Shown one piece after another: positions 6,263-62,120 of a stretch of DNA of 64,000 nucleotides. Made by a program: the position numbers and the translations under genes. Origin of the DNA: Tribonema minus (Eukaryota > Sar > Xanthophyceae > Tribonematales > Tribonemataceae); assembly GCA_017506865.1 (NCBI GenBank), contig JAFCMP010000179.1:806001-870000 (forward strand), written 5' to 3'. Below the pieces are notes generated by a model. It made no database searches. It had not been told where the DNA came from and was given only the letters and a program-made list of their open reading frames with translations. How positions within the stretch are numbered: the first letter of the stretch is position 1; the number at the start of each line of letters is the position of its first letter.

Positions 6263-9200
6263 ATGACTACCGCAATTCACTGGTTTCGCAAAGGCCTCAG
6301 ATTGCATGACAATCCGGCATTGCTGCAGGCAGCGAAAGAAGCTCAGCAAGGTCAGAATGTGTTAACGCAGCTCGGTCATGGTTTATTTTCTGTGCTAACC
6401 GCAGGACTGGTATCCATACCACAGTACCTATTGTCTTGAACCTCCTCTGTCTGGACAACAACAACGCGGGGAGCCGTGCGGCAAAGAGTGTGAAAAATGG
6501 TGTGACACTGTTTTTCCTGGCAGGGCGGGAGGTCGAGTCGATAATGTAAGGAAATTTCTCATAACGGGCACGAGCGTGCACACAAGCAGCTTGCGTGCTA
6601 CTGTTCGTGAAGGCAGAACTTCAAAACAGGAATATTTTATGGTATTTGCACGATGGGTACGAGGAAGTACATGCTGTGAGAAGGCGCAGCCGTGTCAATG
6701 CGCAGCTGCGCTCACACCGCTGTGACAGCGCTCGGCTGCACCATGCGCACCTGCATCATTGCTTAGTGTGTGTGTACTACAAACAGCCGGGTCAACGCTC
6801 AGCTGCGTCAGCGCTCAGTGTGTGTGTGCGCACAGCCGTGTCAACGCGCGACTACATCATTGCTCAGTTGTATTGCGCAGCTCACAGCTCAGCTACGTCT
6901 TCGTGCTCTGTGTGTGGGTGTGCAACCGTGTCAATGCTCAGTCGCATCGGCGTTCAGCTGCACAACGCCCCCGCACCCCAAAAGACACGTGTGACGGCAG
7001 CCCTTGTTGAAGAAATTGCAAGTGTTTCGAGGCTCTGTGTCTGTAACTGTCAAGTTACTGCCAATCATTGATGCCCACTACTCAAGATTTGCATGAAATA
7101 ATCAGCAAAGCGCCGACAGCATGTCCCAGCTCCTTCGCATACAGCAAAACCCCTGTACTTTTTATTGTCAAGTCTCGCTCAGGGCGCGAAAACGCTCAGA
7201 TAAATAATATTTTTAAAAGCTTGCTGTACGGAACCTACATGTCGTGTGACAGTCTGAAGATGTATCAACGACAACCACTCCATGTACCTCTGTCCATCTG
7301 CACTTTCTGTGCGCATTCTCGCTGTTTTGCGCCTTATTGTTGAACCACCCTGCACCTTCGCAACGCTGCAGACGAGCTGCGCTTTACGCTACCACCTGTG
7401 TATGGTGACGCTCAATCAATTCAACTCATGTCAACTTCAACTTCAATGCTCCATGCACACATGCGATACCATGCTCAATCTCCACTGCTGCTGCCGCGCT
7501 TCCGTTGCGCGCAATGCAGTGTACCCGGTGTTCATGCTGGACCCGCCACACGCTGCTGATGCTCAGTCACTTCCACTCATGTCAACTTCAATTTCAATGC
7601 TCCATGCACACATGCGAGACCATGCTCAATTATTAATGCTACCTTGCTTCCGTTGCGCGATGCAGTGTACCCGGTGTTCATGCTGGATCCGCACTTTGCG
7701 AACCCCGCTAAAGTCGGTCAGCTGCGCTACGCATTTCTATTGGAGACCCTGTCGGATCTGGACACTCAGCTCAAGGGGATCGGCTCGAGACTTTATGTGG
7801 TGCAGGGGAATCCGGCGGAGCGCTTCCCTGAGCTGTTCAGGTGACCTTTCCTCGGGAAGCACTTGTGTGGAGAGAAAGGCATCAATCAACCGCCTATTAG
7901 CACTATTTCAGATACATAGAGCATGTAGCTCAATGAATGGAAAATTTGTGATTGCTGTCAGCCAGAATGTCTGAGCCGATGCTGTATACATGTTTTCACA
8001 CTGCTTCCTGGAGCAGTTTCAGGAAGCAGTGGGCTCTGTTCCATTGTGTTTGCACATTATCCCATTTGCTGCGCTATCCAAGCGAGTTCTCTAACGTCTT
8101 GTATTGTCAGAAATGTGGCTTTTGTTGCTTTTTTCAAAGCATCATTCATTTCACTCACCATTCAGTGCGCGCAGCAAGAAGACAATGCCACAGTCAGCTG
8201 TACGCCCGCAAGCTGTTGGGTATCATTTGAAGTGTAATATGGTCCACATTTGAAGTGCAATAAGGCTCTTCATTGGGTGCATGCTCAGTCATCTTTGTAA
8301 ACAATCTGCTGTGATTAAGCTTTGTAACAAGCTGCTGAGCATTGCTGAAAAGCACCCAGCAGGTGACAGCAGCCCGTGCGTTTCTCCCCTTGCTTCAACC
8401 CCTGCATGCCCTCTAATTCCTATCCTACCACTAACTGCCGTTGTCACAGGTGCAAGTGCGAGCACAAGTGAAGCTGCGGAGCCACTACTGCAAAGCACGT
8501 GCCTCGCCTCACCTCAATACTCACCTGCCTGCCTGTATATATACATACCTGCCTTTGGTGACAGGGAGTGGTCAGTAAGCCTGCTGACGTTTGAAACGGA
8601 CACGGAGCCCTACGCAAAGAAGAGAGACCAAGAGGTACATCGCACATGTGTACTTCATCACTACGCATGCATGCGTTTTCCAAGTACAATCAGTGGTACA
8701 TTGCACATGTGTACTTCATCACTACGCATGCATGCGTTTTCCAAGTACAATCAGTGGTCTTGACACAATTCACTTCAGCTTCTGGAAGTGGTTTTGTGGA
8801 ATGTTGCAGCGCTGTTGCGATTCTGTTGATGTAAGGCACTCGGTATTGCTGCTTTCTACACAAAAGCGCAACTGCATCAATAGCAGGCAGATTGTAGACC
8901 TGCGCGAAGCGCCTTCCTCTACGATTGTCAAATGATCACATCAAGAAGCACCTGCATTGTGGTCATTTCACAACAGGAATGCCCACTGTCGATTGATGTA
9001 TGATAGTGAGATGTGTGCTAGCGCTTGCATTTGTGTCGTGGTTCAACAGAGGAGGCAGCGAGTCGACAGCAGCATGACTCAGACACATGTGCACATTGAA
9101 GCTATTACAAGACCTGGTATTGCAGCGTTATGCAATACCTGATGTTGATGCTTCATGTGACCAGCCCTAACTTTAACCCTAATGCAGTGGTGTAAGCTCT

Positions 9201-12200
9201 AACACGTGGCATGATTGTTGCTCAGATCAACTTTACGCCATCCCAAGCCCTCACCCTGAATTTATTGACCCTTGCGCTACACTGCCGTCACGCAGGTGTA
9301 GAAGATTGTTGAGCCATGTGGCGTGACTGTCACTTAGCAGACTAGGTTTACGCCATCTCCAGCCCAGTCCTAACCCTTATTCGACCGACCGTAGACCTAC
9401 ACTACTGCCACGCAGGTGTGCCAGATTGCTGAGGCGTGTGGCGTGACTGTTGCTCAGCATGCTAGGTTTAAGCTAAGGCACAGCTAATCCAACCGCAACT
9501 TTGGAAATGCAACCCCACTGCCGCTCTACGCTGGCATGCAAGATTGTTGAGGCGTGTGGCATGACTTTCGCTCAGCAGACTTATGTTAACTGTAATCCTA
9601 GTCCTAACCCGAGTCCGACCAACCCTATCCCTACACTGCCGCACTACGCAGGTGTGCAAGATTGCTGAGACGTGTGGCGTGACTGTCGCTCAGCACGCGT
9701 CGCACACGCTGCACAACTTGGACCGCTACGAGGCCAAGGCGGGGTGAGTCGCCTTCATTTGTGGCAAACCTCAACAATCAAAACTTCAAATTTGCAAAGT
9801 TGAACACCACATACTTGAACAGTTTGCGCTTCTTGGCCGCCACAAAGTGTGCACTATAACGTACCATCAGCGGTATCGTTGACTCCGTGCGCCGAAAACT
9901 GTCATTGTTCACATTGTCCAGTTTGTGTATAGGCTTCAATAACATGAACTTCAACAGCCTGCCTGCCCTGACAGCATTTTGACGGCGAGCCATCTGCACG
10001 TATACTGTATGTACCAAGACCCGCAAGCTTTCCATATAAGTGGTAGATTGATGTTGCTGCATGCACTTGCTTCAGTAATGCTTGCCACCAGTGTGACATG
10101 TCAGCGCTCTCTGTTTTGTCCACTGCCACAATAAATGCCTCTGTGCAGCAGTTGATGCCCTGCCCTACTGAATCATCGTCGCGCATGGCAATATCATTCA
10201 TGAATGAAAGGTTACATGCATGAATATGCCAGCGACTCATGCCCTTGCGCCTGCGTGGCCAGTGTGCACCTTCAACAGCATGAACTTCAACAGCATGAAG
10301 TTCGATAGCATGAACGTCATGACCACATTCTTTTGCGAATGCGCCAGCGACTCATGGCGCTATTCAACAGCATGAGCTCATGAATTCACTTTCATCGATG
10401 AATGCGCCCAGCGACTCATCTCCTTACACTGTCTGCTGCTGTGGCACGTGTGCAGAGCGTCCCCGCTTCCAAAGTCATATGGCCCCTTTTTGAAGCTGTT
10501 CGACAGCCTCGGAGCCGTGCCGCAGTGCGTTGAGACTGTAACTGTCGACATCATGCCACAAGACGGTTCCGCAGTGCCTGCAGGTAAGCAGTGCTCAGAA
10601 AAGCTATGTGCTGTAAGTCACTGTTGAAGTGTGCGAATTCAAATTACATGAAAGCGTGCTTATCTACCGCGCTTGTCACGCGTGACGGCGCGCAGTGCTC
10701 AGAAGTTTGTGCTTGGCAGGTGCTGTTGAAGTTGGCAGTGCATAAACCGTAACTGCTGACGTCATACGGCAAGGCGCGGCGGGTGCGCGGTGCTCAGAGC
10801 TTTGCTGCGGCGTGACGCACCGTTCCAGAATGCAAGTTCAAGATCATATTTTTCTTCAGCGTGGCCTTGGTGCGTTGGAGCGTGACCTACCAGGATTAGG
10901 GTTAGGGTTAGGGTTATGCGGGAGCCCTGGGTGTGTCAAATTGTCTGCTCGAGCCTCTGAGCACTTTACAGTATATCATTGTCTGCAGAACTATGATGTC
11001 GTACTTCTTGAAGTGTACACAATCTGAAAGCAGTATCTGCAGGTGCCCAGTGCTATAGAGCTCAAGCTAAAGTAACTGTAGTTGTTCAAAGGTGTGGCGA
11101 CTTCATATACTTCCAACTTCGGCAGCTGTATGGCTGAAGCTCCAGAGTGGGGTCAGATCTGCTCTGCATCGTTGGCGTGATAGCTGCTGCACCTGGCGTC
11201 ACTGCTACACGCGCGCACGCAATGACTTTTTCAGAAGTCTTCATGCTGTAAAGCCTTTAGCGCAGCGCCTCTCTTTGTTGTAGCATCGTTGTGCTTCTCG
11301 TGTTGCGCCTTAACAGCGTGTGCTGAATTGGCGATCTTGAACTTGTTTGTGAGGTTGTTCTTGAAGCCTAACCCTAATTGCCGCAGAGGAGCACACGGTG
11401 CCATCGCTCGACACCACACCCTACCCACCGCTGCCTTCACATAAGCACTACACATTACCCTTGCCCTGACTCAACCCCTGACCCCAACCTTAATTGCTGC
11501 AGGTGAGCACACGGTGCCATCACTGGACACCACACCCTACCCCCCCCTGGCAAACCCCCTGCTATACCCGGGCGGTGAGACCGCAGCGCTGGCACGAATG
11601 CAGCTCCACCTTGCACGGAAGCAGTGGATTGCGAAGTTTGAGAAGCCAAAGACATCGCCAAACAGGTGCATGTACTTTTTTTATCAATTCTCGCTCCTCA
11701 TTCCATACCTCAAGTTTGGGGCCGCGAATGTTAGTCATTTTCACTTTCATGAATGTTTCATGTGCTGGCCAGAGGTAATTTGACTCCCTACTTCTGAAGA
11801 GATCCTCACCTGTGCCCAGGACGACACACACACCATCACAACGCGCGTGCTCCTGCCGACTCTACTCTTTTCTCTCACTTCAAGTTTGGGGCGGAGAACA
11901 GTGCTCAGCCCCTACCTCAAGTATCAGGCGGCGATTCCAACCATTTCCTGATGTCTTCATGTAGTTTTTCACGTGCTGGCCAGAGGTTGTTTGACCCCTC
12001 ACATGAGAGCGTGATCCTCATAAATACTTGGATGACTCATCATCATGACACACCTGACCTCCGTTCTCCTCTTCTCTTTGTAAACTTCAAGTTTGGAGCC
12101 GAGTACGACAGTGCTCAGCCCGTACCTCAAGTTTGGCTGCCTGAGCAGCCGCCTCTTCTACCACAAGCTTGCGGAGATCTACAAGGCCTCACCGGGCCAT

Positions 12201-15200
12201 GCGAAACCGCCAGTGTCACTGCATGGCCAGGTCAGAAATGAATGTCTCGGCAGTTTCACTGTGTGAAACAGACTTATGTGTAGGTTTAGGGTTAGGGTTA
12301 GGGTTGCTGCATGGCCAGGTAAATGAAAGTCTTGGCAGTCTCAGTGTGTCACGAAAGGTGGTTGGTGCCAGGGTTTCAAGATAGGCAAAGTTGAGGGTCA
12401 GGGCCAGGGTAATGGTTAGGGCTAAGGCTAGGGTTAGAGGCGCTTAGGGTTCGGGCTAGGGTTAGAGGCGTTGTTCCGATGCTGCCTCCAGCACATTCTT
12501 TTATTGACCTGAATGGGGAAGGTTATCATGACTCCGAGTGCCCATGGGGCAAGGGTGCTGATCTTCTGTAGTGGCGGTGACGGAGTAACAGTATACTCTG
12601 AAGTACCCCTCGTTCTCGGCACGCAAGTGGTGGCGCCAGCGCAGTGTGCCAGTCTGCGGTGCTGGCAGGGAAGAGCTGACGGGCCCATGATCTGGTAGTG
12701 GCGAATTTATTTTGTGGTGCGGGCTAACTTCTGCTGAGCAAGAGAGGTGCTTCTTGATCACACGGCGCATGCTTTTGACCACAGCTTTCCCTAAGTGTAA
12801 CAGAGCATGGCCGATGCTATACAAAGTGAGGGTTGGGGTGAGGGTCGGGATTGGGGTTACGTCAGGGTTGGGTTAGGGTAAGAGTAAGGGTTATGGCTGG
12901 GTCGCTGAGCGCTGACAGCGGTCGCCGTAACTGTAGACCAGCAAGCAACATCACGGAGGCGGTGATTATGAGTTAGGGTCACAGTTAGGGTTAGGGTTGA
13001 GGGTTGGGGTTAGCGACGCGTCCTCCCCCGCGGCACTTGCATGCCTCCCTCACGTGAGACAGCTGGCTGAATGCTGGTGCTGGCTGCTGAGCGTTGATGC
13101 TGGCTGCTGCTTGCTGTTGCGCAGCCATGATAGGTGACGTTGGTTGTTGACAAAGGAAGTTGGAATTCAAGATGAAGCTGAACAAAAGTATTTAAGCTCA
13201 TGTTCAAGGTGTGGCGAGAGGCCCTCCACATGAGCAGTCATACAGAACCTTGCTGACTGGTTGGTTACATGCTGCTCACTGCTGCACGGCTTCCGTGACG
13301 CGAGTTCTACTACATGTGCGGCCACATTGCGCCTCGCTGAGCGCTGAAGTCATCTGCTGATCGCTGCTGCGCAGCTGCTGTGGCGCGAGTTCTTCTACAT
13401 GTGCGGCCACACTGTGCCGCACTTTGACCGCATGGAGGGCAACCCCATCTGCCGGCAGGTGCCGTGGGACAGCAACGCTCAGCTGCTAGCAGGTAAATGC
13501 TTTGTTGTAAGCAAGAAATGAGTATTTAGTTTGCATATGCACTTGTGCATAAGGAGTGTTGTACTGGCAGTGTACTTAGCGTGCAATTGCAAGTATGGAG
13601 GGCAACCCGATCTGCCGGGAGGTGCCATGGGACAGCAATGCGGAGCTGCTAGCAGGTACTTTTTGCTTAGCGAAGACTTGGGGATAAGAAAATATCCCCA
13701 AGGCAAAAAGTGACGACGCAGGCCTTACATGTTCACTTTTTGCTTTGAGCTTGGATACTGGAAGTATTGTACTGGCAGTATATGCAAGTATGTGGAGGGC
13801 AACCCCATCTGTCGGCAGGTGCCGTGGGACAGCAATGCGCAACTGCTAGCAGGTATGAGCGAGAAGTTATGGTCATTTGCACGTGTACGTGTGTACTAGT
13901 CTGTTCTTGCTTGAGGGGCCATGGGTTACGCTCTCAAATGAGTCGAGCGCACAACTTCTACATTTTCTGACAACTTCAACTGCAGCCAAATCACCTGTGG
14001 CGTCAGACGCAGTCGAGGCCGGCCCTATGTAGGGTTGGGGTTAATTTATTACTGAGGGTTAGTTTTAGGGTTAGGGTTAGTGTAGCTGGACCTGAGTGCT
14101 CAACGCTTTGCGCCTTTCAGTAGCAGCTGACGCACACATTCCAACGCAGAATAGTGCCTCCCAACTCGTCCCCTTGCACACCTTCCCTCTCTACACAACC
14201 CCATAGGGGCTAAAAAGAGGGGGGAGTGGCCGGGGGGATAACCTGGTAGAGCGTTATTAATCACGAGACATCGTTGGATGCGTCTTGATAGTGTCCCACT
14301 CGGCGACACTTCCGCCAGCTCAAAGCTGAGCGCAAATTCATCACCGCCAACGTGTACTGACACACGCAATGCCCTAAGCCTACCTTCAAGTACCAACAAA
14401 CATGTGTTTAATAATAACAACTGAGAGGCGGACTGCTTCAACGCGCATTCATCAACCGCCTCCACAGGCCAACCCGGAGTCATGTGCTGACGGTGCCGGT
14501 GTGTCTCGGGACCGCTTAGGGTCATGACTAGGGGTGGGGTTAGGGTTAGGGTTAGGGTTAGCGTTTACCGCCAAAGTGTGTTGTTTCATGCAACAGCAAG
14601 ACTCGTACTTCGTACTTCTGCCAGCTGCAGCCAGCAATGACTCATGAGTCATGACTCATACCCGCACTGACATGGCCCACTCTGCAGTGAATTCATTATA
14701 TTATGACTGCTGTGGCAGTGACTCATGTTGCCAGTACTTGTCCACAACACCTCACTCATCATGCAACCACTAACTGCAAAACGCTCATCAGGCTCATCAT
14801 GCGAACGCTAGCTTCAAAACGCTCATCTTGCCGCAAGTCATTCCGCATTTGACTCATTTTGCAATGACAACTCACGCGCTGTGACTCACTCTGTGACTCA
14901 TATCGCGCCACGCAGCTTGGGAGGAGTCGCGCACCGGTTACCCTTTCATTGACGCCATCATGACGCAGCTCAGGACCGAGGGGTGGATCCACCACTTGGC
15001 AAGGTGAAAGCACCCATAGTCACCCCTGTGAAGGCTGCGCTTTGAACGTAATTGCACACTGTGTGTACAGTCTATAGGTCACACGTGTCAATTACATGTG
15101 TCAAATACTGCATGTGCCCTTTGTGATTTCTAGTACGCGCCTTAAGCGAGAATCAATCCCCCTTTCATCGACGCTATCATGACGCAGCTCAGGACAGAGG

Positions 15201-18200
15201 GCTGCATCCACCATCTGGCAAGGTGACAGGGCCCGCGTTTACTACTGAACAGTCTGCAGTTTGAACTTGGTTGCATACTTCTAGGCTGTTCAACTGTCTG
15301 TGATTTGACGTACGTCAATTACATGTGTCCAATACGTGAACGTATATTCATGTGCGTTCAAGTACACGCCTACTTCGTGAAGAGGTAACGATTTCTCTTT
15401 TGTCGCTATCATTGGCCTCTCTAATGGTACGTGAGCAACGAATCCGGCGCTTGTCACTGCACAAGGGTCGTTGCTTCTCGACTGCCTATAGCTTCGGTGC
15501 GCGCCTCCTGCGCCTGCAGTTACGCATCTGCAGTTGCATACAGCGCATCAGTGCTCAGGTGACAAACTGTGGCAGTGCTCAGTTCATCAGCACCCTAACC
15601 CTAACCCTAACCCTAGTGCAGTTAACCCTAGTGCAGTTCCATGCAGGCATCAGTGCTCAGGTGACCAGCACAACTGTGGCAGTGCTCAGATGATCAGCGC
15701 CCTGGCCTGTCAAGTAGTGGATACAGCTCACAATGCTGCGTTGCTGCTGCACGGGCACGCCGTGGCATGCTTCCTCACGCACGCAACATTATTTGAAGGC
15801 AAAAACTAATCTGCATTATGAAAACCAATGGACTTCTTCGACGCTACTGAGCGTTGCACCCTGCTCTGCCGCTGCGCAGGCATGCCGTGGCATGCTTCCT
15901 CACGCACACAACAGTATTTAGAGTAAAAAATACTGATCTGCATACTTCAAGTAACAAGAAGTCATGTTATGTACTACATTGAAGTGTTGATAATGTTCAG
16001 TTGTGGACTCAGTTCACACTGATAAAGCGTTGCATCACCCGCAGGCACGCTGTGGCATGCTTCCTCACGCGCGGCGACCTGTGGCAGAGCTGGGAGGCAG
16101 GCGCGGTGGTGAGTCACCACTTGAAGTTCAGATGGAAGACGATGTACACCTCATGTGGCTTGCAGAGCATGGGATGGCGCTCGCCCTGCCTCAGCCCCTT
16201 TGCGAATGGCAAGCACATGTTGAGCCGCAGAGCTCGACAAGCCTTGTCATAAACCGAAAAGTGAGCAAGCAGCGGATGGGATCATTCTGCTGCGGAAGCA
16301 TGACCAACAGCGAGCAGCAAGAAAAGCAGCTGGTTGTCTTGCAGCAATGTTCAAACTTTGATAGTTGTCGTTGGTGGTTGCTAAGCGCTGATAGGACATG
16401 CTCTGTCTAAAATAGCTCAAACTGTAGTCGTTGAGTCCCACATTCCCTAGACCTACCAAACCATGGTTGCCCCCCCCCCTGCTGGCAGGCTGCACACTTC
16501 GCCATGCCTGAAAGCGTGGTTCACCTGTGACGCGTTCGTTTGCGGCCTATTATGTCAGCAACAAGTCATGGGTGAGGGTTAGGGTAGGGGTAGGGGTAGG
16601 TTAGAATTAGGCTAAGCCGACGATCGGAGCGTCAACGTTTCCTCAACTTCATGCTCCTCAACTTCATGTTGCACACGTTCTTGTATGGGTGCGTACTTCA
16701 GGCATCACGCAACAAGCAGAGCGCTATGCGTGCAGATAATCACGCTGGTGCCTTTCACATTTGCGGTCAGGTCTTCAACCAGTATCTATTGGACGCGGAC
16801 TGGAGCGTCAACACACCGCCAGTTGGAGTGTCACTTTCTTACGTTCATAACGCAGTCATGTGCACGTAGGTGCACACTTGAGGTACCACGCGTACGCGCA
16901 AGCAGAGTGCCATGAAGTGCAAAAGATCGTAATATTGCCTCTCCTTTATGTTGTCAGGTCTTTGACAAGTATCTATTGGATGCGGATTGGAGCGTCAACA
17001 CCGCCAATTGGATGTGGCTGAGTTGCAGTAGCTTCTTTTACCAGTACTTCAGGTGCGTGCGCAGAGAGGACATCAAGTTGAAGTTGATTTTTGCTGAAGG
17101 CGCGAAATGGCCTTGAGCTTTGCGGCATGCTTTAGAGGCTCGTAAACAGTGTAACTGAATGTAATGGCCACTTTGATCAAGCAACGGCAAGCTTTGTCAC
17201 TGTGTGTATGATGTATGATGAGTGGTAGTACTAAGCGCTTTCCACTGCGTTGCAAATGGGGTTATCTCAGCGAGTGATGGCGTATCTGGCGTCGCCAACT
17301 CTGGGAGCAGTAAACCATGCATAAGCGTATGAGCGACAGTTATTTCTCTGAGTATTGGGCTGACCTAGGCTTACTGACAGCATTGTCAAAAGTACGAGAG
17401 AGGGTGGATTATATACTTCGTAGTATACCAACAAGTGGCACTGTTTGGGTTGCGATTCATGCTGACTGGCAGAATTGTTTTCTTTGGGACAGCAACACCC
17501 TCTTGCTTTAAATGCTGGAGTATATGCATAGGGATGCTTGCGCCTTTGCTCAAACCTCTAAGAGGTCGTGGATGCTGCACCATATGAGCGCTGCTGTGTC
17601 AATGGTCGACCCACAACAGTGGTGAGCATGTCCTGTTCAGTGCGCTCAAGATTATGGTTGGCTTCACCCAAGGCAGTGCTTCATAGTGATTGTGAAAGTA
17701 TCGAGTCTGCGATACTGTACCGGAAGGTTGCCCCTCAGCAAAATCTTCTTATGCCGCTTTATGCTACTTATCACAACCAGCATATGGGCACTGTCTCCAC
17801 CTTGCACCTGCATGCGTTTGTGTGTGCATTTTTGTGAACTGGCTGTTCCCGCCTCAAACCGCGCCTGCGCTGTCTACTGAAGTGGCGTTGTATCGGTGTA
17901 TGTCCATTTGTGTATGAAGTCCATTTTGTGTGTATGAAGGAATCACTCAACATGAACAAGCATTGCTTAACACAGGGTATGTATGTATGCGCATCTGTAC
18001 GTGAAGAGCATTGCTCAACACAGGGTATGTGTGTATGTGTATGCGCATATGTATGTGAAGAGCATGGCTCAACACAGGGTATGTATGTATGCGCATCGTC
18101 CTCTGCGCGGCGCAGGTGCTATAGCCCGGTAGCGTTTGGCAAGAAGACAGATCCAACGGGAGCGTACATACGCAAATACCTACCACAGGTATGATCCATG

Positions 18201-31470: not shown

Positions 31471-31528
31471 TGCCGCATGTCGCTTCCGTCGCCGCAGAGG
31501 TCCCCGCTGCTGCCGCCGGCACCCGCAC

Positions 31529-46700: not shown

Positions 46701-49700
46701 CCTCTGCTTTACTAATTTGGTGATGATACTCGCGGCCTGATGCGCGCATGCTGGTGCCGCTCGTTCTACAGCTTTCGGCTGCAGGATTTGCTGCCATCGG
46801 AACAACAGGACAGCTACTTTTACTTGACATTGTAATAACCACATCAATGCATACATGCAAGCGTGTGTGCCATGAAAGACATGCGTCCCTCACACGTGCT
46901 TAAACGGTTCTCCAAACTGCTCTCCTCTCCCTGCCAGCTAGCCTCTTCCCTTCTGCTACATGACTTCCGCTTTTCTTGGTTGTTACTGCATGTTCTGGAA
47001 GTAAAACAAAAAATATGTGCGGCTCTCATTCCCCTGTTGACTGCCCCCCCTGCTTCTGATGCAAAACTGTACCTCACATTTCCTCAAGTGGTGACTCATC
47101 ATATGGCCCCACTCACATAGCCAACCCGGTTCCCTCTGCCAGACGTTCAACAAGACAAGTATGAAGCACAATTGTTAGCCACTTCAAGTACTTCTTCAAG
47201 TAGTGACACACCACATGGCCCTCTCTCCCTGCCGACTGGCCTCCTTCTGCAGCACGTGTACACTTCAACTTCTTCTTCAGGCGGAGACTCACCATGCGCC
47301 CCTCTTCGCCCTGCCGGCTGGCCTCCTTCTGCTGGTGCATAGACGCCAGGCGTCGCAGTTCACCGCGCGCCTCCGCAAGGTCTGCGCCTGTGCTCTCAAG
47401 TTCCACCTGTGTGAAACATCATGACCACGGAAAATGCGTTTTGGATGCATTGCTCGCAGAGTTCACTTACAATGACATTATTGTGGTTTTGGCTCGCTGC
47501 GCGCTTCCGTCAGGTGCACATGCGCCTGTGCTCTGTCTGACCAACCGACGTACGCAACTCGTCATCAGGATAGCGTACTGGAGAGATGTATGCTTAACAT
47601 CAGCAATAGGATTGTCGTTGATGACTTCACACTGCGCCGCAGCTCGCCGCGTGCCTCCGCAACGTCTGCACCTGTGCTCTCAAGCTCCGCCTGTTGACGA
47701 AGCGATTTGATTGTCTTGGTGCCATGAGAGGATCTGTGTCGTGAATATTGCTGTACACGTGCATGATAAGCACGCGTGCCGTTTGAAGCGTGCATGAGCT
47801 CCTTATATATATGTTGCTTTGGTTTAAGTGCAGTTTGCCACGGGCGTCTGCAAGATCCACGCCGTTGCTCTCAAGGCAACAGGTCACGATGTCAATAGTC
47901 TAATCGCAGAACTTTGGAGCAACTGCTTAAGACACGACAACACTTTGATCAAATGTACTTTGCCGCAGTTCACCCTGCGCCCGCTGCCTGCAGAGGCGAT
48001 TGGCCGACCATGGAATGTGCATGTGTTGCCATAGCAGTTCAAAGTATTATATCTTTGAAGGAAAACCATAAGTATGCGCATGTATGCACAAACCATCACC
48101 ATACTTCACAGCATGCTTCACAGTACCGCTTCATTGGGATGCACATGTGCAGCCGCAAGTGTTTTCACCAATATTGACTTTCCTGCTTCAACATTTATGT
48201 GACTTCAAGGAGTCTGACCTTCATCTGCTGGTACTCTCGCTCCTTCTCCTGGAGCTGGCGCTGCGCATTGCTGAGCGCTGCTGACTGGCGGCATACCTCC
48301 TCTGCTCCCATGACCGTCTGTGAGCGGGGAGTGAATTCATCCAGTACGCTTCATAAGGTAGGTATAGGTATCTTGAGCTAATGCTGTAAATTGCTGAGTG
48401 CTGCTGACTGGCGGCACACCTCATCTGCCCCTGTATGCGCAGATAATTCATTCAGTACGCTTCATGAGGTAGGTATAGGTATCGAGCTGAGCATTGCTGA
48501 GCGCTGCTACTGCCGACACTCGTATTTCGCGCCCATGACCATCTGTGCGGACTGCACTGTGTATGATGCGTGCACAAGGGTAGGTATAGGTATTGAGCTG
48601 AGCATTGCTGAGCGCTGCTGACTGGCGGCACTCCTGCTCCGCGCCTATGACCGCCTGCGCACACCACATTATGATCCATACACGAAGGGTAGGTAGGTGG
48701 TGGTGGCTGTCGTGGGGCAATGCTACTTGGAGTCTTATTCTTTGGGTGGTGTGTGTTTGGGGAGGCTGTTCTGTCTACAATGGGGTGGCTCTTCAGATGT
48801 CAAGCACGGCATCAGGAGCTGCTGTTGCAATAGGTGGCAAACGCACGCGCGCTGCTCGCCGCGCAGGTGGGTTTATGTGCTTCACAGTACACAAATGAAA
48901 TAGCTCCTAGGGCACAGCGCAGACTAGGCTGCTGCGTTGACGCAAGCTTTTCGATTGCATAGGCAACCCGGCCTCCCTTGGGCCTTTATAAATACAAGTC
49001 CATACGTACACAAATGAATGCACTGTATGTATGAAGTGAAGCCTAACCCTAACCGTAACCCTAATCCTAACCCTAATCCTAATCCTAACTCTAACCCTAA
49101 TCTAACCCTAACCCTATGAAGGCAACCTCACCATGGCTTTGGCCTTGCCGTCCGTGCGGCTGTCTGAGCACTGTCACAGTAGGGTATGTATACAAGCAGT
49201 GTGTGACGACTGACTCACCGCGGCCTCAGCCCTGCTCTTGACAGCTGCCTGAGCGCTGCTGCAGTAGGGTATGTACGCATGCAGTGTGTGATGGCAAATG
49301 CAATGTATGTACACATCATGTATGTTTGCTCACTCACCACAGCCTCAGCCTTGCTCTGGACCTCGTGCAGCTGCCTGAGCGCTGCTGCGGTGGCCTCGGC
49401 GCCACGGCGCTGCTCACGCTTTAGGCGGCGCACCTCGTTCTGTAAGCCACAACGGCATTAATAGAAAGAATGTTAGGCACGGGCTACAACCTCGCTTTGC
49501 CGTGGCATGTGCGTAGTGCTTGCAATAGCGCACGTTAGCTCATGTTTCACGTTGAGCACAGTTAGCTGTGCAGTCAAGCTGGTACCTACTGAGACCCCAA
49601 ACGGCTCAGTGTCACACGGGAACAGCGATTTGATCTGCAATACTACTAGCAGTTGTGAGCAGATGTTGAGCGCTGCTGCGGTGGCCTCAGCGCTCCGACG

Positions 49701-52700
49701 CTGCTCGCACTTCAGCCGGCGCACCTCGTTTCTGTAAGGCACAACACCATCAACAGCAAAGTGTTAGGCGCCGGCCACATAGCCTTGCAGTGGCACGAGC
49801 GTGGCACTTCATTGTAGAGTAAATTAACGCATGTTAGCTCATGTTTCACCTCGAGCACCGTTAAACTGGTACCTACTGAGACTCTGAAGAGGCTCAGTGT
49901 TACGCGCGTACAGCAACTTCATCTGCGACACTACTTGAGCTGCTGTGGAGCGCTGCTGCGGTAGCGCACCACGCTCTGTGTGCCACAACAGCGTTATCAG
50001 GAAGGGTAAGAGGCACGGGCTACACATGCGCAGTCACCATGTACCACCGCACATGACACTTCAACTGAATTTTCACCCTGAGCGCTGTTGCACTTGATAG
50101 CGCAGCAATATGCATACCTAGTCACAGCAAAGTCACTGGCATCGTTGACAGGCGCGACCTGCTCTCGCTAGCGCATCGTTGCATGTGTCAAGCATCACTG
50201 CCTCACACTTCATACTTGAAGTTGCCTGAGCTTGTGATTGAAGTTGCACGGCGCGTACATACCTGTAACGACGTCACCTGCGTCGATCGCGCTCCCAGCT
50301 CTTGTTTGAGCATCGCTGCCTCCTGCTCCATCTGCCTCAGCCGCTGCATTTCCAGGTCCTGAATGACATGTAGCATAATTATATATGGCTCAGAGTTAGG
50401 GTTAGAAAAGTCAGCAGAAGTTAGAGTCACTGTCAGGAGTTACCCTAACGGTTCAATACCAGTCAGGGTAACCCTATGTCTGACTCAGAGATTGTGAATG
50501 AACGACAGCAGTGCTCAGAGCCGCTGCATCTCCATGTCCTGAATGACGCAAACAATGGGTCAGGGTGACGGGTGGAATATGGGTCAGGAGATAACCTCAA
50601 CTTGACTCGGAGGTGAATGCACGACAGGGTCAGGCTAACCCTGACCCTAACCCTAAACCCAGTGCTCAGAGTGGCTGCATCTCCTCCTGAATACATGACA
50701 TCAAGCATGGGTCAGGCTTTGAAAAAACAGTCAGTTGGAGTTAGAGTCACGGTCAGGAGTTACCCTAAGGGTTAGAGTCAGTTGGAGTTAGAGGCACGGT
50801 CAGGAGTTACCCTAAGGGTCAGAGTCAACGTCAACATATACCCTAGTCCTGACTCGAAGTTGCATGCACCACAGCAGTGCTCAGAGCCGCTGCATCTCCA
50901 GGTCCTGAATTTACATGAGGCATGGGCCAGGATTGAAGTTAGCGTCATGGTCAGGAGTTACCCTATGAATGTTAACAGTCACGGTCAGTATTGACCCTAG
51001 CTGAGTAATTCTGACTCAGAATTGAATGCACGACAGCAGTGCTCAGGGTAGTGCCCGTCAGGCACAAACGCTGTCGCATGGGTGACTTGAGGTTGCCCTT
51101 TTCCTGACCTGATTAGGTCCCAACGAACCCTGAACCTAACCCAACTGCAACCCATTCCACGTGTGAGGTGTGCGACATTCGCTTTCGAGCATACCTCCAG
51201 AATGTATGCGTGTTCGTTGGCGTCGTCAGATTTCGTGATGCTTTATCTATCATGCGCGTGAGCTGTGCCACGGTCTGCTGCAGCTCACAGTATGCTGCTC
51301 AGTGTGTATATACACACAGGAGTTCAACTCACATGTGTCCAAGCATGCTTGACATTGCCAAATTTTGCGTGATGCTGACCTTGTGTGTGAGCTGTGTTGC
51401 GGTCTGCTGCAGCTCCGCCTTCAGTGCCAGCACGTTCATGGTCATGGCCTCGAGCGTGTGCTCGCGCCGCTCCCCAGTGCTGAGCAATGACACACCAAAC
51501 ACACACATACTACATATCAACAAGTCAGAGAAAACGCATGCATATGTACATACCCATGATTATGGCCTGCAGCGGGTGTTCGCACCGCTCCCCAGTGCTG
51601 AGCGGTGACACAGAAAAATGCATACGTACATATATACCAACAAGTCAAGTGAAAGCGCATACATACGTATCAAAGAATAGCGCATGCATGCATACATACA
51701 TACCCACAAAGTGTGCTCGCGCCGCTCCCCAGTGCTGAGCGGTGACACAGAGCAATGCATACGTACATACATGCGCGTACACCCACAAGTCAGTGTCGGA
51801 CTAGCAGGCTCTCTTAGGTCTGCGATTAGTTAGGTCACGCAGAGTGATGACTGGCTACAGTTGTGCAGTGCAGGGTCGCATTATGTTCGTCAGATAGGGT
51901 TAGGGATAGGGTTAGGGTTAGGTTATAGTTTTGGGCGGCCCCCCACATTTTCTGGGTCTTTCCATGTTGCTCCCCAGAGCACGCTTCCTTCTCAGGGCAT
52001 GCGTTGCTTGCCCATCTACCTTAACACCCCCGTCCTGTAAGCAAAGTCGCCGCCGTGGCGCCCCGCTAATGTCGATAACTTGAAGTATGGGTATTGAATC
52101 AACTTCAAAGTGATTTCAGTCAGCAAGTCGAAGAAGTGCCACCTTGTCAAGACCCCCGTCCTGTCAGCAAAGTTGTCACCGTGACGCCCCGTATCCATTT
52201 CATGAACTTCAAGTTCAAGTACTTTCAGTTGACGTGTGTCACCTCATCAATACCCGGGTCCTGTCAGCAAAGTTGTCGCCGTGGCGTTCCCCGCTACACA
52301 GCAACTTGAACTTTCATCAAGTTGAAGTAGTTTCAGTCAACCTGAAGTAGTGTCACCTCATCAAGATCCGTGTCCTGTCAGCAAAGTCGTCCCCATGGCG
52401 CCCCCGCTTCACATCAACTTGAAGTGTCATCAAACTGAAGTGATTCCAATGAGGAAGTTGAAGTTGCGTCACCTCATTAAGACCCGTGTCCTGTCAGCAA
52501 AGTCGTCGCTGTGCCGCCCCGCTTCTGTGCTGCGCTGTAGCTCGTCACGCATGCCCTGAACGACCTCCTCACAGGTCAGCCTGCAGCAGCGAGCAGCGGC
52601 AGCAGCAGCAGCGACAGCAGCAGTAACAGCAGCAGCAGCAGCAGCAGCACAAGCGTCAGCGGCAGCAGCGGCTGCAGCAGTGGCGGCAGTGACAGCAGCA

Positions 52701-52773
52701 GCAGCAGCAGTAGCATGGCACAGCAGTGCGACTTAGAAGCAGCAGGATGGCTCAGCCAAGCAGCGGCGGCGGC

Positions 52774-52812
<39 letters not shown>

Positions 52813-55800
52813 GGCGGCAGTGACAGCAGCAGCAGTGGCGGCAGTGACAGCAGCAGCAGCAGCAGTAGCATGGCACAGCAGTGCGGCTTAGAAGCAGCAG
52901 GATGGCTCAGCAGAAGCAGCTGCGGCGGCGGCGGCAGCAGCAGCAGCAGCAGCAGAAGCAGCAGCAACGGCCGCGGCAGCAGCAGCAGCAGCCGCAGCAG
53001 CAGCAGCAGCACTAGTAGCAGCAGCAGCAGCAGCAGCAGCACAAGCATTACCTGCGGTAGCACCAGCAGCATGGCTCAGTGGGGCACCTCAAAATGCTCC
53101 ACTGCAGCAGCAGGAGTATGCCGGGCACTTCGGGCACAACAGGGCCACACAAATGACACTGCAGGGATGAAGAGGGACCCATTTAGCTGCTGCTGCGCTG
53201 TGGTGTCCATCAACTTCAACCTGAACATGAATCCGCCTACGTAGGGTTGAGGTTAGGGGTTAGTTACATGTCTCAACCAATATCTGCATTGGTGGGGCCC
53301 TTTTTCAAAACCTGCAGCTGTCAAGGCGTCAGCCAGATCTCGAACAAAACCGCATTTACAACTTCAACTGATCAAGTCCACCTCCTCCTCTGCGCTCACC
53401 TGGTCACTTCATGGTCGGCCTGCTCCTTCCGCAGCCGCGACTCGAGCGCTGCCACCTGGCGCATAGAAGTAGGGTTCGGGTTAGGGTAAAAATGAGGATT
53501 GGGGGTTTCGCTGAGAATGAGGTCAAGGGTTGGGGCCAGGGTAAGGTTTGAAACAAGGATTCAAACGAGGGTTAGGGCTGGGGCCAGGCCTGGTAGAAAC
53601 ACGAGAAACGCCAAGGCGTCACAGAGTTGAGATGTGTTGGAAACGCGAGTGACGCCGCAGGTCAGCCATGACACGAGCGCTGCCACCTGGCGCATAGAAG
53701 TAGGGTTAGGGTTAGGGTTTAGGGTTTCGCTGAGTATTAGGTTAAGGGTTGAGGCCAGGGTAAGGATTGAAACAAGGATTCAAACGAGGGTTAGGGCTGG
53801 GGCTAGGCCTCGCACGCATGCGAGAAATGTCAAGATGTCACAAGAGTTGAGATGTGTTCCAAACGCGAGTGATGCCGGACGTTAGCTGCGACTCAAGCTT
53901 TGCCACCTGGCACATAGAAGCAGGGGTAAGGTTTCGCTTAGAATTAGGTCAAGGGTTGGGGCCTATCCTTCAGTATTAACATTAAGATTCAGGTGAGGGT
54001 TAAAGCTGGGCTAGGCATGAACACAAGAAACACGAGACACGCCAAGACGTCATAGAGTTGCGATGTCACAAGCGACAGTGACGCCGGAGGTTGGGCTTGA
54101 CTTAGGGCTAGGGTAATACTGACAGTTTCTAGAGTTAGGGTTATGAGGGCTGAGGGTTGGATTGAGATTAGGGTTAGATGAGGCGCTTACACCAAATATG
54201 CTGATGCAGCTAGCGATGACTTGTGATGACATAAACACCTGCATGGTGATGGACATGGCATGCACATCGCAGAAGACGACCTGGATAAACCTACCAGGGC
54301 CATTGGTGTGTATGCAGATGTACCTGCCCTAACACTGGTGACAGAAGTCGCTGGTACCTCATAATTGTCATCTTACCACATGTCAACGCTGTACAAGATG
54401 TTTTAAACTCCGTGAAGTGTTTCAGTCACATTGGCAGAGTGCACATTGCTGCTGCTGCTACCAACAGTGCCGCCATGTGTGTTGGTGAAACCCTTTCGGC
54501 AAAGTGACCTTTTAATCTACCTGAACTAGTGACATGTGCGGCTGTTTAGAGGCAGCACTTGAAATGCAATGCGTTACATGCCCACTGAAATGGAGTGTCA
54601 GTACACGCTACCTGCTTTGATGCGCGCTTGTCTGCCGCCACTTGTGCCGCGTTCCAGGCCAGTTCACGTGTACCCCTTTGGTACACATCCAGTTCAAGTG
54701 TACTCCTTTGGCACCGTTCCAGTTCAAGTGTACTCCTCCGCCTGGCCAACATCTAGTTCAAATTTACTCCTTCGATTTCCACAAAAGAACTGATCATCAG
54801 CTCATGCTTGTACGTGCTTTCTGTGACAGGCGTGCTTCTGCCGCCTCCCGGTTTGAACTTTAAACAATACCTACCCGATACACAGCACACGCGTACTTGC
54901 TGTGACAGGCACTCTTCAGCTGCTGTTTGCGCTGCTTGAAGTTCAAGCAATGATACCTACCCCTACACTCAGTACATACACACCTGCTGTGACAGGCGCT
55001 CTTCTGCCGCCGCTTGCGTCGCCTCCCTGTCTAACGTTTCAGGAATCATACCTACCCTTAACTCAGTACATACATACCTGCTGTGACAGGCGCTCTTCTG
55101 CCGCTGCTTGCGCTGCCTCCCTGTTTAACATTTTAGGAATCATACCTACCCTCAAACTCAGTACATACATACCTGCTGTGACAGGCGCTCTTCTGCCGCC
55201 GCTTGCACTGCTTGAAGTTCAAGTAATCATAAATACACTTTTTACACTCAGTACATACGTACCTGCTACGACATTATGCGGCTGCTTCCGCTCGGCCTCC
55301 CTGTTTGAAGTTCGAATGATCATACATACCCTTAAAACTCAGTACATACATACCTGCTGTGAGAGGCGCTCCTCTGCCGCCGCTTGCGCTGCCTCCCTGT
55401 CCGACTTTTGCGCGGCAAGCTCCTGCGCAGGCAGCGGCGGCGCACATTGATGTTTGGATGAGGTTAACTATTCCACTGGCCAGTGGCCTCTTTGCAACCA
55501 CCACTTTTGACATATACATGCATCTGGCAGAATTCACCATCCACAGCTATGCTCTCATGAATAGTCTAGGTGCAGTGGTCCGTGTATGTTACCTTCTGAC
55601 TGCAATGTGCGGTGGACAGGCAGTCAAATATATGCTCTTGTTTGAGATGTTGAAGTGACAAAAAGGTATATGACCCATACCGTAACCAAAACTTATAGAT
55701 CCCCCCCTGATGAATACACGTGTACTTGAAGTAATCAAATTGTGTGACTTGAAGTAACCAATCAAACTGAAGTTGGATGTATGGGCGCTCAGCCAACACC

Positions 55801-58800
55801 ATAATGAGCGGTGCCGTTGCACAGGCTTGCGCGTCTGTGCTGTGCTCATTGCTGATACTTCACATGTGTAAGTTGAAGTCATGGCATGAACACGAACTTG
55901 AAACAGCACCAGTGGCACCTATGCACGTGAAGCAGAAGCAGCATGTTACTCTGACTACTGGCGGCTCTTGATTCATGAATCATGCTCAAAGCAAAGAGAG
56001 TACTTGAGGCAATGATACACACTGCTGAACCAGGCACACACGAGCGTAGTTGAAGTACCGTAGAGAGTCTGTTCTGACTCGCAGCTGCCAGCTGCTCATT
56101 GCTGGGCTGTGTTGCAGTGCCGGTGTCTAAGCTCTTAGGGCGCAGCGCAGACTAGGCTGCTGCATAGGCAAACTTAATGGTTGCATAGGACACCCAGCCT
56201 TATTTGGGAATGCAAGTTCACAAGCGCTGAGCAGTAATTACAAGCGTAGTTGAAGTACCTTAGAGAGTCGGTCATTCTTGACGCGCAGCTGCTCATTGTC
56301 CCTGGTTGCCTGCGCGCCCGTATTTCGCGCTTGCTTGAGTTCTTGTTTCAGCTCCTCCACTTGGTGACTGCGTTGCAAGAGTCAGAATCACAGGGAGCAA
56401 CACTTTCCTACATGGGAGCTGTTGCTTGAGCTCCTCTATCTGGTCAGTTGTAGTCAACAGATCATGCATCAGAGGTACCTGAACTTGTTCTTTGAGGTAT
56501 TCAACTTCACTTGGTGACTGCGGTTTGAATAGTGACAGTGCAGCAGTGAATCACACATGCATTATGCGCACTTGTGCATGCATGCTTGCATACATGCCCG
56601 CATGTGCACTTGTGCGTGAGCTCCGCTCCTCCACTTGTGATTACGCATCAGTCACAATCACTGTGGGTGAACACCAAGTTGTAAACATGTACTTCCACAC
56701 GAGTATGTGTTGTACTCCTTGCAGTATAGAAGTAGAAATATAGAGGTATACTTTGTGTATGGACCAAAGCATTCCTGCCTGATGCCCTCTGCCTGGTAAC
56801 TGTGGTTCATGCACGCAGCTGCACACAAAAATGTCACTGACATTTGTACTCGTTCATCCCCGCTTAGGGCGCGAAAAAAATAAAGAAGATGGTGGATGTC
56901 AAGGTTGCTACCAGGGGGGCCACATGCATCTTGTGACAGCTCAAAGGTGCCTCAATGCGCGTTGACAATCAATTCAAAACGACATCGCCAAATGACACTC
57001 CGCCCCCCCCCCACTACTTACATCCTAGTCCATCTGTCCACCCCCTCCAGGCTCCACCATTTGTGTCACAGACGTAAAGAGTATGCCGTCGCCGAATGAC
57101 CCCCCCCCCCCCCCCCCCCCCACTACATCCCAGTCCCTCCAGACTCCACCATTCGTGTCACAGCAAGTAAAGAGTACCCCGTGGTAGAGCTCTGCCGAGA
57201 AAGTTGAGTGCATGCGAAGCAGTGCTATGACTTTTCAAGCTGGAGTTCTGGCTGGTCCGAGCATCAACATTCCACTTGAGACGCATAAGCCCTGAAAGTT
57301 TGATACCGTACTTGAGGTCGATGTTCTGGTACTTGCAGGCCGAGGGTCCCCTCGCCGTTGAGCGTTGAGCATGTCATAGCATTAGTATAGCTGCACTTCT
57401 AGAGTACGTGCAAAAATATGAAGTCAGTTTTCTTTCTTCCAGCAGTCGGCAGTTTTTGCGGTTGCAGGACGTACTTGAGGTCAACGTTCTGGTAGTGCAG
57501 GTTGAGGGTCTCCTCGACGTTAAGCGCTGCGTTCACTTTCACCATGAATACATGAACATGATCAATGAAAGTTGTTGGTTAACCAATGATACCTCTGATT
57601 GCCCTGCTGCTCTTATGCAATTTAGTTCATCAGTCTCAGTGTATGAGATGTGTATGATATCGTACTTGAGGTCGATGTTCTGGTAGTGCAGGTCGAGGGT
57701 CTCCTCGCCGTTGAGCGTTGAGCGCAGACGCTCCTCCAGAAAGTGAAGTCGCATCTTCAAGTCGAACTCACTCCTGCACGCGCCAACACACAGCATCGGC
57801 AGCGAACGCAGGAGGACAGATAAGTATCTTATAACTGGAATGACTTGAAGACACATCTGAGTTGCAGGCACTTCAGCTGACTAACAGGTATGGCATTGGA
57901 TCCGAGACATCAGACAGGAAGTGAAGTCACATCTTCAAGTCAACCTCGCTTCTGCGCAGGTGCATAGCAAGCAAAGATAATGACCGTCAGGGCTGGAATC
58001 GCCAGCAAACTGATCTTTCTGCCTGGCCAAGAAACATCTGTCTTGTGCCCTCAGATAAATTCAGCACAGAAGTGAAGTCGCATCTTCAAGTCAAACTCGC
58101 TCCTGCGCAGCGCCACATTGCAGCAGCAAAGAACGAGCACCAACACATAGCAGCGGCAGTGAATGACAGAGGACATATAAATGCCTTGGAACTGGCCGTG
58201 GGACTGAACGACTCAGAGGGCCAACGCAGTTGCGAACGCACAATTGCGAATAAATCATTACAAATAACTCAAAGTTTAGAAATGACCTGGAGGGCAAACA
58301 AAGTTGCGGCACGTTCAGCTGACTGAGAGATCTGGTGCTGGTTCCAAGACACCAGACCGGAAGTGAAGTCGCATCTTCAAGTCAAACTCGCTCGTGCACG
58401 CACCGACACACAGCAGCGGCAGCGAACGAGACAGGGCACATCAATGTCTTCTAACCAGGATGGCTCGGAGGGACATCTAAGTTGCGGGCACGTTCAGCTG
58501 ATCGAGAGATATGGCAACGACTTCAACAGGACAAAGAGACAGAGATTGCGTCTTCAAGCTGAAGTCACACGTGCACCCACCCACACACACTGCAGAAGTT
58601 CACGAGAAAGTAGCCAGAGAAACATTCCAGGGCTGGCAGATCAGCCCCTTGTGCAGTATGCGGCCGACAGAAATAACTGCGCACTGCCGTTTTCAGCGCT
58701 GTGTGTACTAGAGCACCAACTTGAAGTGTCCAACTTGAAGTGTCCAACATGAACCTATTAGGCTGCAGTGCAGCCCGAGCGCTTGCTGTGCACTGCTGCT

Positions 58801-61019: not shown

Positions 61020-62120
61020 GTGGTAACCCTAGCCCTAACCTAGGGTTTGTGGCTTGCACGCATGCCTTGCGGGTAACCCTAACCTCAAGCCTACGCTACA
61101 TGGCCGCGACCCTGCAAACCCTAAACTCACCGTAGTCCTAGGTCTACCCCTGATCATAGGGTTTGGCTCCCCTCTGCTCAAGCGTGGGCTGCAGGACGCC
61201 CGCAGGCCTAACCCTAACCCTAACCTCCTAGCCCTAACCTAGGGTTTGACTCACCTCTACTGGAGCGTGGACTGTAGGATGTCCCCTTCCCTGCGCTGTG
61301 CGGCTTGACAACTGGCGCTGGTGCGGGCATGTCGTGACGAGGCCTGCAGTACGTGGAAGGAGCGGTTAAGGGGTAAATTAGAGTGCTGTGCGGCTAATTC
61401 TAACCCTACCCTAAGTACGTGGAAGGGGCAGTTAAGGGCAAAGTCAGAGTGATGCGCGGCCAACTCTAATCCCAACCCTAACCCTGACCTATATACGGCC
61501 TGTTGGGCCCAAGGATAAGTTAGAGTGGTGTGCGGCTAACCCTAACCCTAGCCTTAATCTATATCAGGCCTGCAGTACGTGGAAGGAGCGGTTTAGGGAT
61601 GAGTTAGAGTGCTAGGGTTAGGGTTAGGTTTGATGTGCGGCTAACCCTCATCCCAACCCTCACCCTGACCTATATAAGGCCTGTCGGGGCTAAGAGATAA
61701 GTGAGAGTGCTGTGCGGCTGACCCTAACCCTAGCCTTAATCTATATGAGGCCTGCAGTACGAGAAGGAGCGGTTGAGGGATGAGTTAAAGTGGTGTGCGG
61801 CTAACTCTAACCATAACCCATCAGTATGATTTCTCTCACATAAGTTTTGATGCAAAAAGGGTCATGATGTAGTATAGGGGAGGAGCGGTTTAGGGATAAG
61901 TCAGAGTGCTGGGCGGCTAACCCTAACCCCAACCCTAACCCTGATTCCAACCTATCAGTAACTTTTAATTCGCATAGGTGCTGAATGAAAGGGTCAATAT
62001 GACATCGCAACTATGGGGCAGTGAAGGGGAAAGTTAGAGGGCTGTGTGGCTATCACTATCCCTTATCCTAAATCTAAGAGTGCTGCATGGCTCACCCTAA
62101 CCCCAACGCTAGTCTCTCAG
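61020..62120. repeat. complex tandem region with CCCTAACC tracts
   Basis: Units of about 80-180 bp share GGCCTGCAGTACGTGGAAGG, AGCGGTTxAGGGxTxAGT, GAGTGCTGTGCGGCTAACC and TAACCCTAACCC. Direction of the telomere-like words changes between copies. It lies in what would be an upstream intron of the CM1 gene. Confidence 0.88.
61255..61343 (-). CDS. candidate upstream exon of the CM1 gene
   Basis: CAG acceptor, open frame (RHDMPAPAPVVKPHSAGKG, YSPRSSR) and a G|GTGAGT donor, ending in phase 1. Joined to the acceptor at 60310 it yields SPRSSR-AGGSAPGSPRS, the same Ser/Pro/Arg-rich composition. It starts in phase 2, so a further upstream exon with the true start would be needed. Its acceptor region is echoed at about 61493, 61567, 61675 and 61745. 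Confidence 0.5.

Follow-up and report, generated by a model that had tools for sequence, protein, structure and literature searches.

Genes and exon models

The 64-kb stretch of DNA analysed here (the window; GC content 0.53, without N) carries two plus-strand genes and a minus-strand exon whose edges recur, as diverged same-strand copies that we call echoes, in the adjacent introns. The first gene, at 6263-21161, encodes an animal-like cryptochrome/6-4 photolyase (CRY), as identified by three-frame phmmer searches against PDB sequences. Its model begins at the start coordinate of the original prediction made for this DNA and comprises 14 exons and 13 GT-AG introns of 426-1429 bp, yielding an unbroken protein of 526 amino acids. 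Importantly, the exons were set by homology, phase and GT-AG boundaries before any edges were counted. The best PDB match (614 bits, residues 3-485) is to mammalian CRY2, and the animal-like cryptochrome of Chlamydomonas reaches 597 bits. A search for CRY relatives in viral contigs confirmed none, and a search in genome contigs returned three distant bacterial sequences of 24-27% identity. One CRY intron contains a telomere-like array (14529-14565).

6263-6350, 7666-7840, 8565-8634, 9652-9743, 10456-10583, 11503-11665, 12092-12230, plus strand: CRY exons 1-7, phase-consistent GT-AG model
13375-13492, 14916-15003, 16045-16108, 16958-17052, 18116-18188, 19445-19564, 20994-21161 (stop), plus strand: CRY exons 8-14, same model

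The second gene, at 25414-31470 on the plus strand, is the 3' part of a gene with WLR-x-x-G-CPW repeats, read as one open frame across eight exons; this model was built with knowledge of the repeats. The WLR-x-x-G-CPW repeats look ankyrin-like; a Pfam search gave no ankyrin match. The third sequence is a single minus-strand exon, selected for its visible echoes.

25414-25603, 26164-26344, 27110-27234, 28081-28163, 28702-28831, 29506-29625 (acceptor unsure), 30205-30348, 31423-31470 (stop), plus strand: exons of the second gene
57666-57773, minus strand: exon with a Cnn_1N-like stretch (E 2.5e-5, under the curated cut-off)

Exon edges are echoed in adjacent introns

Self-comparison of the window confirmed the presence of exon-edge echoes on both strands. 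Pooled over CRY, the second gene and the minus-strand exon, 25 of 42 edges are echoed, and at least one echo accompanies 18 of the 23 exons. The prediction that echoes lie beside most exons is thus borne out, whereas its wording that nearly every exon boundary is repeated overstates the case. The nearest echo lies 85-220 bp from its edge, with one exception at 284 bp. As had also been proposed, 5' edges are copied upstream and 3' edges downstream.

In CRY, the adjacent intron holds an exon-bearing copy of 13 of the 26 internal edges (E<=1e-4), with one to four copies per edge; 10 of the 13 introns and 11 of the 14 exons are affected, and 5' edges are represented by 8/13 and 3' edges by 5/13. 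Consistent with the claim that the copied unit spans the splice junction, copies holding at least 8 exon and at least 8 intron bases were found for 12 of the 26 edges. These matches are specific to the neighbouring intron and to the coding strand: non-adjacent introns gave 10/312 and the minus strand of the adjacent intron 0/26 (E<=0.01, unfiltered), and at E<=1e-3 after filtering the edges matched their own side in 13/26 cases and non-flanking introns in 0/288. The 6/24 matches on the opposite side (E<=1e-3, filtered) are own-side echoes found again, because short exons let the query reach ordinary echoes; every echo is on the expected side. The protein search itself caught two echoes, each weakly, at 13589-13654 (end of exon 8, 7.8 bits) and 19609-19683 (end of exon 13, 9.3 bits). 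The echoes and related copies in CRY are as follows (percentages, identity).

7416-7546 (junction 7520), plus strand: echo of the exon 2 5' edge (87%, E 2e-42)
8634-8758, plus strand: 61-bp tandem pair beginning at the exon 3 donor (97-98%), with almost no exon part and excluded from the echoed-edge count
9268-9577 (junctions 9296, 9416, 9534), plus strand: three tandem echoes of the exon 4 5' edge, period about 118 bp
11367-11433, plus strand: echo of the exon 6 5' edge (87%)
11697-11719 (E 2e-4) and 11694-11724 (E 0.003), plus strand: weak matches to the exon 7 start, about 30 bp behind the exon 6 donor
11861-11922, plus strand: echo of the exon 7 5' edge (79%)
12307-12349, plus strand: echo of the exon 7 3' edge (85%)
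13270-13333, plus strand: echo of the exon 8 5' edge (84%)
13595-13658, plus strand: echo of the exon 8 3' edge (91%), also a weak protein-level match
13793-13855, plus strand: second echo of the exon 8 3' edge (94%)
15160-15329, plus strand: echo of the exon 9 3' edge (74%)
15713-15783 and 15875-15905, plus strand: two echoes of the exon 10 5' edge
16713-16827, plus strand: echo of the exon 11 5' edge (76%)
18352-18376 and 18604-18709, plus strand: two echoes of the exon 12 3' edge
19619-19680 and 19926-19997, plus strand: echoes of the exon 13 3' edge, the first also a weak protein-level match
20048, 20218, 20478 and 20745-20825 (span 20048-20825), plus strand: four echoes of the exon 14 5' edge
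21181-21258, plus strand: echo in the 3' flank of the coding end including the stop codon (parent 21089-21165; 76%), no splice site involved

In the second gene, 10 of the 14 internal edges are echoed (9/14 in two other counts), with up to five copies per edge; 4/7 of the 5' edges, 6/7 of the 3' edges and 6 of the 8 exons are affected. Junction-spanning copies were found for 10/14 edges. Own-side matches again far outnumbered those in non-flanking introns (9/14 versus 1/72; E<=1e-3, filtered), and the single non-flanking match is the copy at 29684-29792. Both edges of the minus-strand exon (2/2) are echoed.

24880-24984 and 25210-25314, plus strand: copies of the 5' edge region of exon 25414-25603, uncounted because the preceding exon lies outside the model
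25716-26024, plus strand: echoes of the 3' edge of exon 25414-25603
26407-26512, plus strand: echo of the 3' edge of exon 26164-26344 (89%)
26926-26978, plus strand: echo of the 5' edge of exon 27110-27234 (85%)
27289-27486, plus strand: two echoes of the 3' edge of exon 27110-27234
27944-27969, plus strand: echo of the 5' edge of exon 28081-28163 (96% over 27 bp)
28270-28341, plus strand: echo of the 3' edge of exon 28081-28163 (9 exon bases)
28385-28465, plus strand: echo of the 5' edge of exon 28702-28831 (84%)
28907-29429, plus strand: five echoes of the 3' edge of exon 28702-28831
29684-29792 (109 bp), plus strand: sixth copy of the 3' edge of exon 28702-28831, past the next exon (95% to 29029-29137)
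29904-30123, plus strand: tandem echoes of the 5' edge of exon 30205-30348, spacing about 91-111 bp
30505, 30732 and 31048 (span 30505-31162), plus strand: three echoes of the 3' edge of exon 30205-30348
58361-58516, 58070-58115 and 57915-57955, minus strand: upstream echoes of the 5' edge of exon 57773-57666
57470-57529 and 57298-57370, minus strand: downstream echoes of the 3' edge of exon 57773-57666

Repeats across the window

With low complexity masked and E<=1e-4, the self-comparison returned 177 direct and 24 inverted pairs, and two 2-mer shuffles of the window returned none. The direct pairs fall into two sets, 149 at offsets of 30-1000 bp and 28 at more than 5 kb, with none at 1-5 kb. 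Only one inverted pair has its members less than 5 kb apart, a telomere-like pair at 62721/63006, and no inverted pair was found within CRY or the second gene (E<=1e-5, after low-complexity filtering). The inverted-pair count is a lower bound, because masking conceals at least one hairpin, at 28480-28591. This hairpin lies inside the second-gene intron 28164-28701, has 30-nt arms that are 97% complementary with 52 nt between them, and is perhaps a small mobile element. Removing low-complexity matches leaves 133 of the 149 near pairs, which together take up 25% of the window. Their share is uneven, being 26% in CRY, 57% in the second gene and 0% in 21259-24548 between the two, a 3.3-kb stretch with no near repeat. 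Eight gaps without near pairs exceed 1.2 kb, two of which lie wholly or partly in CRY (4922-7402 and 9699-11366).

Beyond the modelled genes, telomere-like (TTAGGG)n arrays like that in the CRY intron occur at many window sites (45793-45824, 46215-46289, 49042-49116, 62414-62462 and others). Long imperfect GCA-type and CTGCCG-type repeats at 52583-53041 and 31528-31760 are possibly coding. The minus strand at 35.0-39.9 kb holds open frames with segments that end in PTxAPTSAP-type repeats, including a match to the PT disordered repeat (E 2e-4, under the cut-off), which suggests a modular protein built from repeated exons. Pfam scans covered both strands at 42.0-51.9 kb and 52.0-61.9 kb, the minus strand at 32.0-41.9 kb and the plus strand at 6.2-16.1 kb and 20.1-30.9 kb (except 23.4-24.3 kb), and the plus strand at 16.1-20.1 kb was covered by PDB sequence searches instead of Pfam. 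Only photolyase domains exceeded the curated cut-offs, and a fourth gene was therefore not resolved; sub-threshold matches were to Cnn_1N, PT, TFIIA, Presenilin, S_4TM, DUF6931, DUF7168 and a few more.

Divergence of echoes fits unused copies of conserved exons

Echoes in CRY and the second gene are 71-96% identical to their parents, that is, they differ by 4-29%, which indicates that the process that made them is long-running. Over 22 CRY copies, exon-part mismatches numbered 24/298, 18/293 and 48/290 at codon positions 1, 2 and 3, respectively. The 90 mismatches comprise 42 silent changes (24% silent would be expected at random), 45 nonsynonymous changes and 3 stops. A coding function of the echoes was rejected on the basis of the nonsynonymous changes and stops. 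In the same alignments, divergence was 0.184 in the intron part (114/621) and 0.102 in the exon part (90/881). These values are close to those predicted for a conserved parent and a freely drifting copy, in which one side drifts at exon positions 1-2 and two sides drift in the intron. The position-3 mismatch is somewhat higher than this drift model predicts, and the position-3 excess arises largely because the exon itself changes silently.

Relationships among copies point to more than one history. The exon 4 echoes resemble the exon (0.83-0.92) more than they resemble one another (0.79-0.81), which fits a slow master copy, whereas three pairs of echoes of exon 28702-28831 share 0.94-0.96 mutual identity versus 0.76-0.90 to the exon, which fits copies of copies. 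Among the CRY exon 14 copies, similarity declines with distance.

AG or GT is kept in 16 of the 22 CRY copies, a proportion at or above chance given 0.73 identity across the first ten intron bases. Using a simple splice-site score built from the 20 introns of CRY and the second gene, we found that GT-keeping echoes have a mean donor score of 9.7, compared with 9.8 for real donors and -2.7 for random intronic GT. In 17 of 22 pairs the echo scored below the real site. Among the echo donors, those at 12318 and 18369 outscored their real counterparts, and the one at 19668 scored 11.2 against 12.8.

Local tandem duplication as the probable source of echoes

Taken together, the copies, their placement and direct orientation, the partial tandem periods and the pattern of divergence probably reflect frequent short local tandem duplications within genes, of which those that span an exon edge survive as drifting intron copies. 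According to this model, units of about 60-300 bp would be duplicated in tandem and in direct orientation. Where an exon start is doubled, only the second copy would be joined to the rest of the exon and the first would turn intronic, with the reverse at an exon end. Such a duplication would go unseen in mRNA only while the copy joined to the rest of the exon remained in use, and it would survive where splicing ignored the extra copy. The unused copy would then become intron, lengthening it and drifting freely, while the exon copy would alter mostly at silent sites, and repeated rounds would leave several copies of differing age. The upstream and downstream placement follows because this arrangement keeps the mRNA and protein intact, and therefore gives no grounds for invoking a special process.

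The copies are direct and close together and in places form arrays with complete periods (for example, 9203-9695), from which we infer tandem duplication by replication slippage or template switching, and its continuing activity. Alignments that cover a whole or nearly whole period include 144 bp at an offset of 151 for exon 2, 397 bp at 112 for exon 4 and 199 bp at 129 for 28778-28972. The original prediction was of a continuing duplication process centred on splice junctions. Its first part, repeated and long-running local duplication, is well supported by the identities, the direct orientation and the complete periods seen in some cases, and its second part receives moderate support from the edge statistics presented below.

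Several observations do not sit easily with this model. Some echoes fall short of a full period (for exon 6, 67 bp at an offset of 116), and the copy at 29684-29792, although 95% identical to 29029-29137, lies past the next exon, so that a single adjacent duplication is insufficient. Gap columns number 5 in the exon part (881 aligned positions) and 53 in the intron part (621), exceeding the expected factor of two. Uniform duplication under-predicts the echoed edges of CRY, so a bias or selection is needed in addition, and the excess that calls for it is significant in one of the two genes. Other observations count against a process centred on splice junctions. Near pairs without exon sequence make up 7/26 in CRY and 13/32 in the second gene, the remaining 19/26 and 19/32, which speak for such a process, having at least 8 exon bases. 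The CRY coding end is echoed in the 3' flank where there is no splice site; together with the 61-bp pair that begins at a donor and has almost no exon part, this indicates that more than splice sites is involved. The fraction of CRY edges spanned by a repeat, 0.46 at the edge and 0.27-0.42 across the next 100 bp, is back at 0.35 at an intron depth of 200-240 bp.

Are exon edges favoured?

Some of these points bear on another possibility, that duplication is uniform along genes and that edges stand out because the conserved exon side keeps old copies recognisable and exons draw the eye. The intron-only pairs and the echoed stop-codon end are as this explanation would have them, as is the proportion of intron positions spanned (20% in CRY and 50% in the second gene). 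When the exon map was shifted circularly, the second gene gave 9/14 spanned edges against 7.0 expected (P=0.23, not significant), whereas CRY gave 12 against 5.7 expected (P=0.014; P=0.002 against random intron points). The absence of near repeats from 21259-24548 also argues against uniformity. Coverage by repeats at the edge, at 30-100 bp and beyond 200 bp was 0.50, 0.38 and 0.16 in CRY and 0.71, 0.45 and 0.48 in the second gene, giving edge/far-interior ratios of 3.1 (0.50/0.16) and 1.5 (0.71/0.48). We compared these with simulations run forward in time, in which tandem duplication was uniform, exons were conserved, and small indels, deletions and foreign insertions also occurred (23 settings, 170 runs). 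Setting means of the edge/far-interior ratio were 0.31-0.95 (20 settings) and those of the edge/all-interior ratio 0.39-0.53 (3 settings), with edges below interiors throughout, and among the 90 runs with per-run edge counts no run exceeded 11/26 echoed edges; the simulations are simple, in that exons were of one length, rates did not vary and introns were alike, and real heterogeneity might mimic an edge excess. We regard uniform duplication as a possible account, though less likely than our preferred one. A bias towards edges is likely in CRY and unproven in the second gene, and the case for it overall is moderate.

A stronger version of edge preference would tie duplication, or its retention, to splice junctions themselves, through breakpoints that favour edges or through useful extra sites that serve as decoys, back-ups or substrates for recursive splicing. 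The CRY edge excess, the near-real donor scores and the kept AG/GT dinucleotides accord with this idea, as does the short exonic reach of CRY echoes, which is 12-63 bp although exons measure up to 175 bp (the query being limited to 100 bp). Against this, exonic reach extends to 95 bp in the second gene, real sites usually outrank their echoes, the echo of the stop-codon end involves no splice site, and detection by similarity favours copies with intact junctions. On balance, we consider a junction-tied process rather unlikely. Within the favoured model of local tandem duplication, a moderate breakpoint bias towards coding edges would suffice: breakpoints that favour exons or their vicinity, followed by loss of the duplications that damage the protein, would account for all edge patterns.

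An assembly artefact is highly improbable: mis-assembly would be expected to give near-identical copies irrespective of exons, whereas the echoes are diverged, silent-site-biased and splicing-respecting. Least credible of all is an origin in introners (mobile intron elements) or retroposed pieces, which the long repeat-bearing introns and the one intronic hairpin might bring to mind, for each copy has its match in the exon next to it alone and there are no direct repeats 1-5 kb apart. Introners were rejected because edge queries found no match in the non-flanking CRY introns, and retroposed exons were rejected because copies include intron sequence; a junction-spanning copy is present at 12 of the 13 echoed CRY edges, and most copies are therefore not mRNA-derived.

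Comparison with known systems

The closest counterpart that we found is the 'mirage' of lancelets. Two reports (PMC3087553, PMC3902484) describe junction-spanning tandem duplications in the Adh3, globin, troponin C and PGBD5 genes, with units of 10-72 bp (Adh3), 60 and 108 bp (PGBD5) and 150-160 bp (globin Gb6 and Gb9), and report or suggest normal splicing. The BflGb6 repeats are 81-100% alike and number six and three in two haplotypes. As in those accounts, the echoes in the window span the junction, affect both 5' and 3' boundaries, are direct and tandem, and in many but not all copies keep AG/GT; the tandem arrangement here extends to full periods in some cases only, with the copy at 29684 as an exception. 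Whereas the mirages described there concern a few genes, echoes here lie beside most exons of the genes examined and are diverged, and the host is probably not a lancelet. In GC content (0.53), intron length (~0.7-1.0 kb) and TAACCC arrays the window is similar to chlamydomonadalean algae, which may hint at its lineage: Limnomonas has 54.15% GC and 788-bp introns (PMC11228838), and Haematococcus has AACCCT repeats (PMC7617258). Amorphochlora, with 27% GC (PMC12730881), and Cymbomonas, with 297-bp introns (PMC5741210), are poorer fits. The ankyrin-like protein may likewise be of green-algal type.

Intron gain by tandem genomic duplication of AGGT, the Rogers model (PMC3443670), also resembles what we observed, in that duplication is tandem with AG|GT near the junction; in the window, exons end in AG at 16/20 introns and start with GT at 8/20. 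The models differ in outcome, since the Rogers model creates a new intron within an exon whereas existing introns lengthen here. The AG|GT context of many of the 20 introns would fit an origin of some of them by AGGT duplication. In a search of the 20 introns for the hallmark of such births, one weak candidate emerged, the match to the exon 7 start at 11697-11719, perhaps left by an intron that arose through duplication. In none of the 20 did the end of the upstream exon recur immediately ahead of the acceptor. Intron birth as the main source of echoes was rejected on the basis of copy placement. Introners are dispersed families that add intron sequence genome-wide; they share with the echoes the addition of intron sequence, but each copy in the window is local to its exon.

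Extending these results beyond the window, we tentatively propose that junction-spanning tandem duplication may be the main genome-wide engine of intron growth in this lineage, with edge-favouring breakpoints leaving each gene with twenty or more splice-site copies of older and newer date, several as strong as real sites, among which the spliceosome would have to discriminate. Intron growth is mostly unobserved as a process, and if the pattern holds genome-wide, readable exon-edge copies of several ages would allow it to be dated copy by copy. The same copies would provide a natural test of how the spliceosome ignores decoys of near-full apparent strength about 90-450 bp from real sites. No description of such echoes in algae appeared among the titles and abstract openings listed, which come from open-licence PMC text only and leave absence in print unproven. 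The phenomenon is not wholly new in kind, lancelet mirages being its closest relative; what would be new is its density, in most exons of the two modelled genes, and a host that is probably not an animal.

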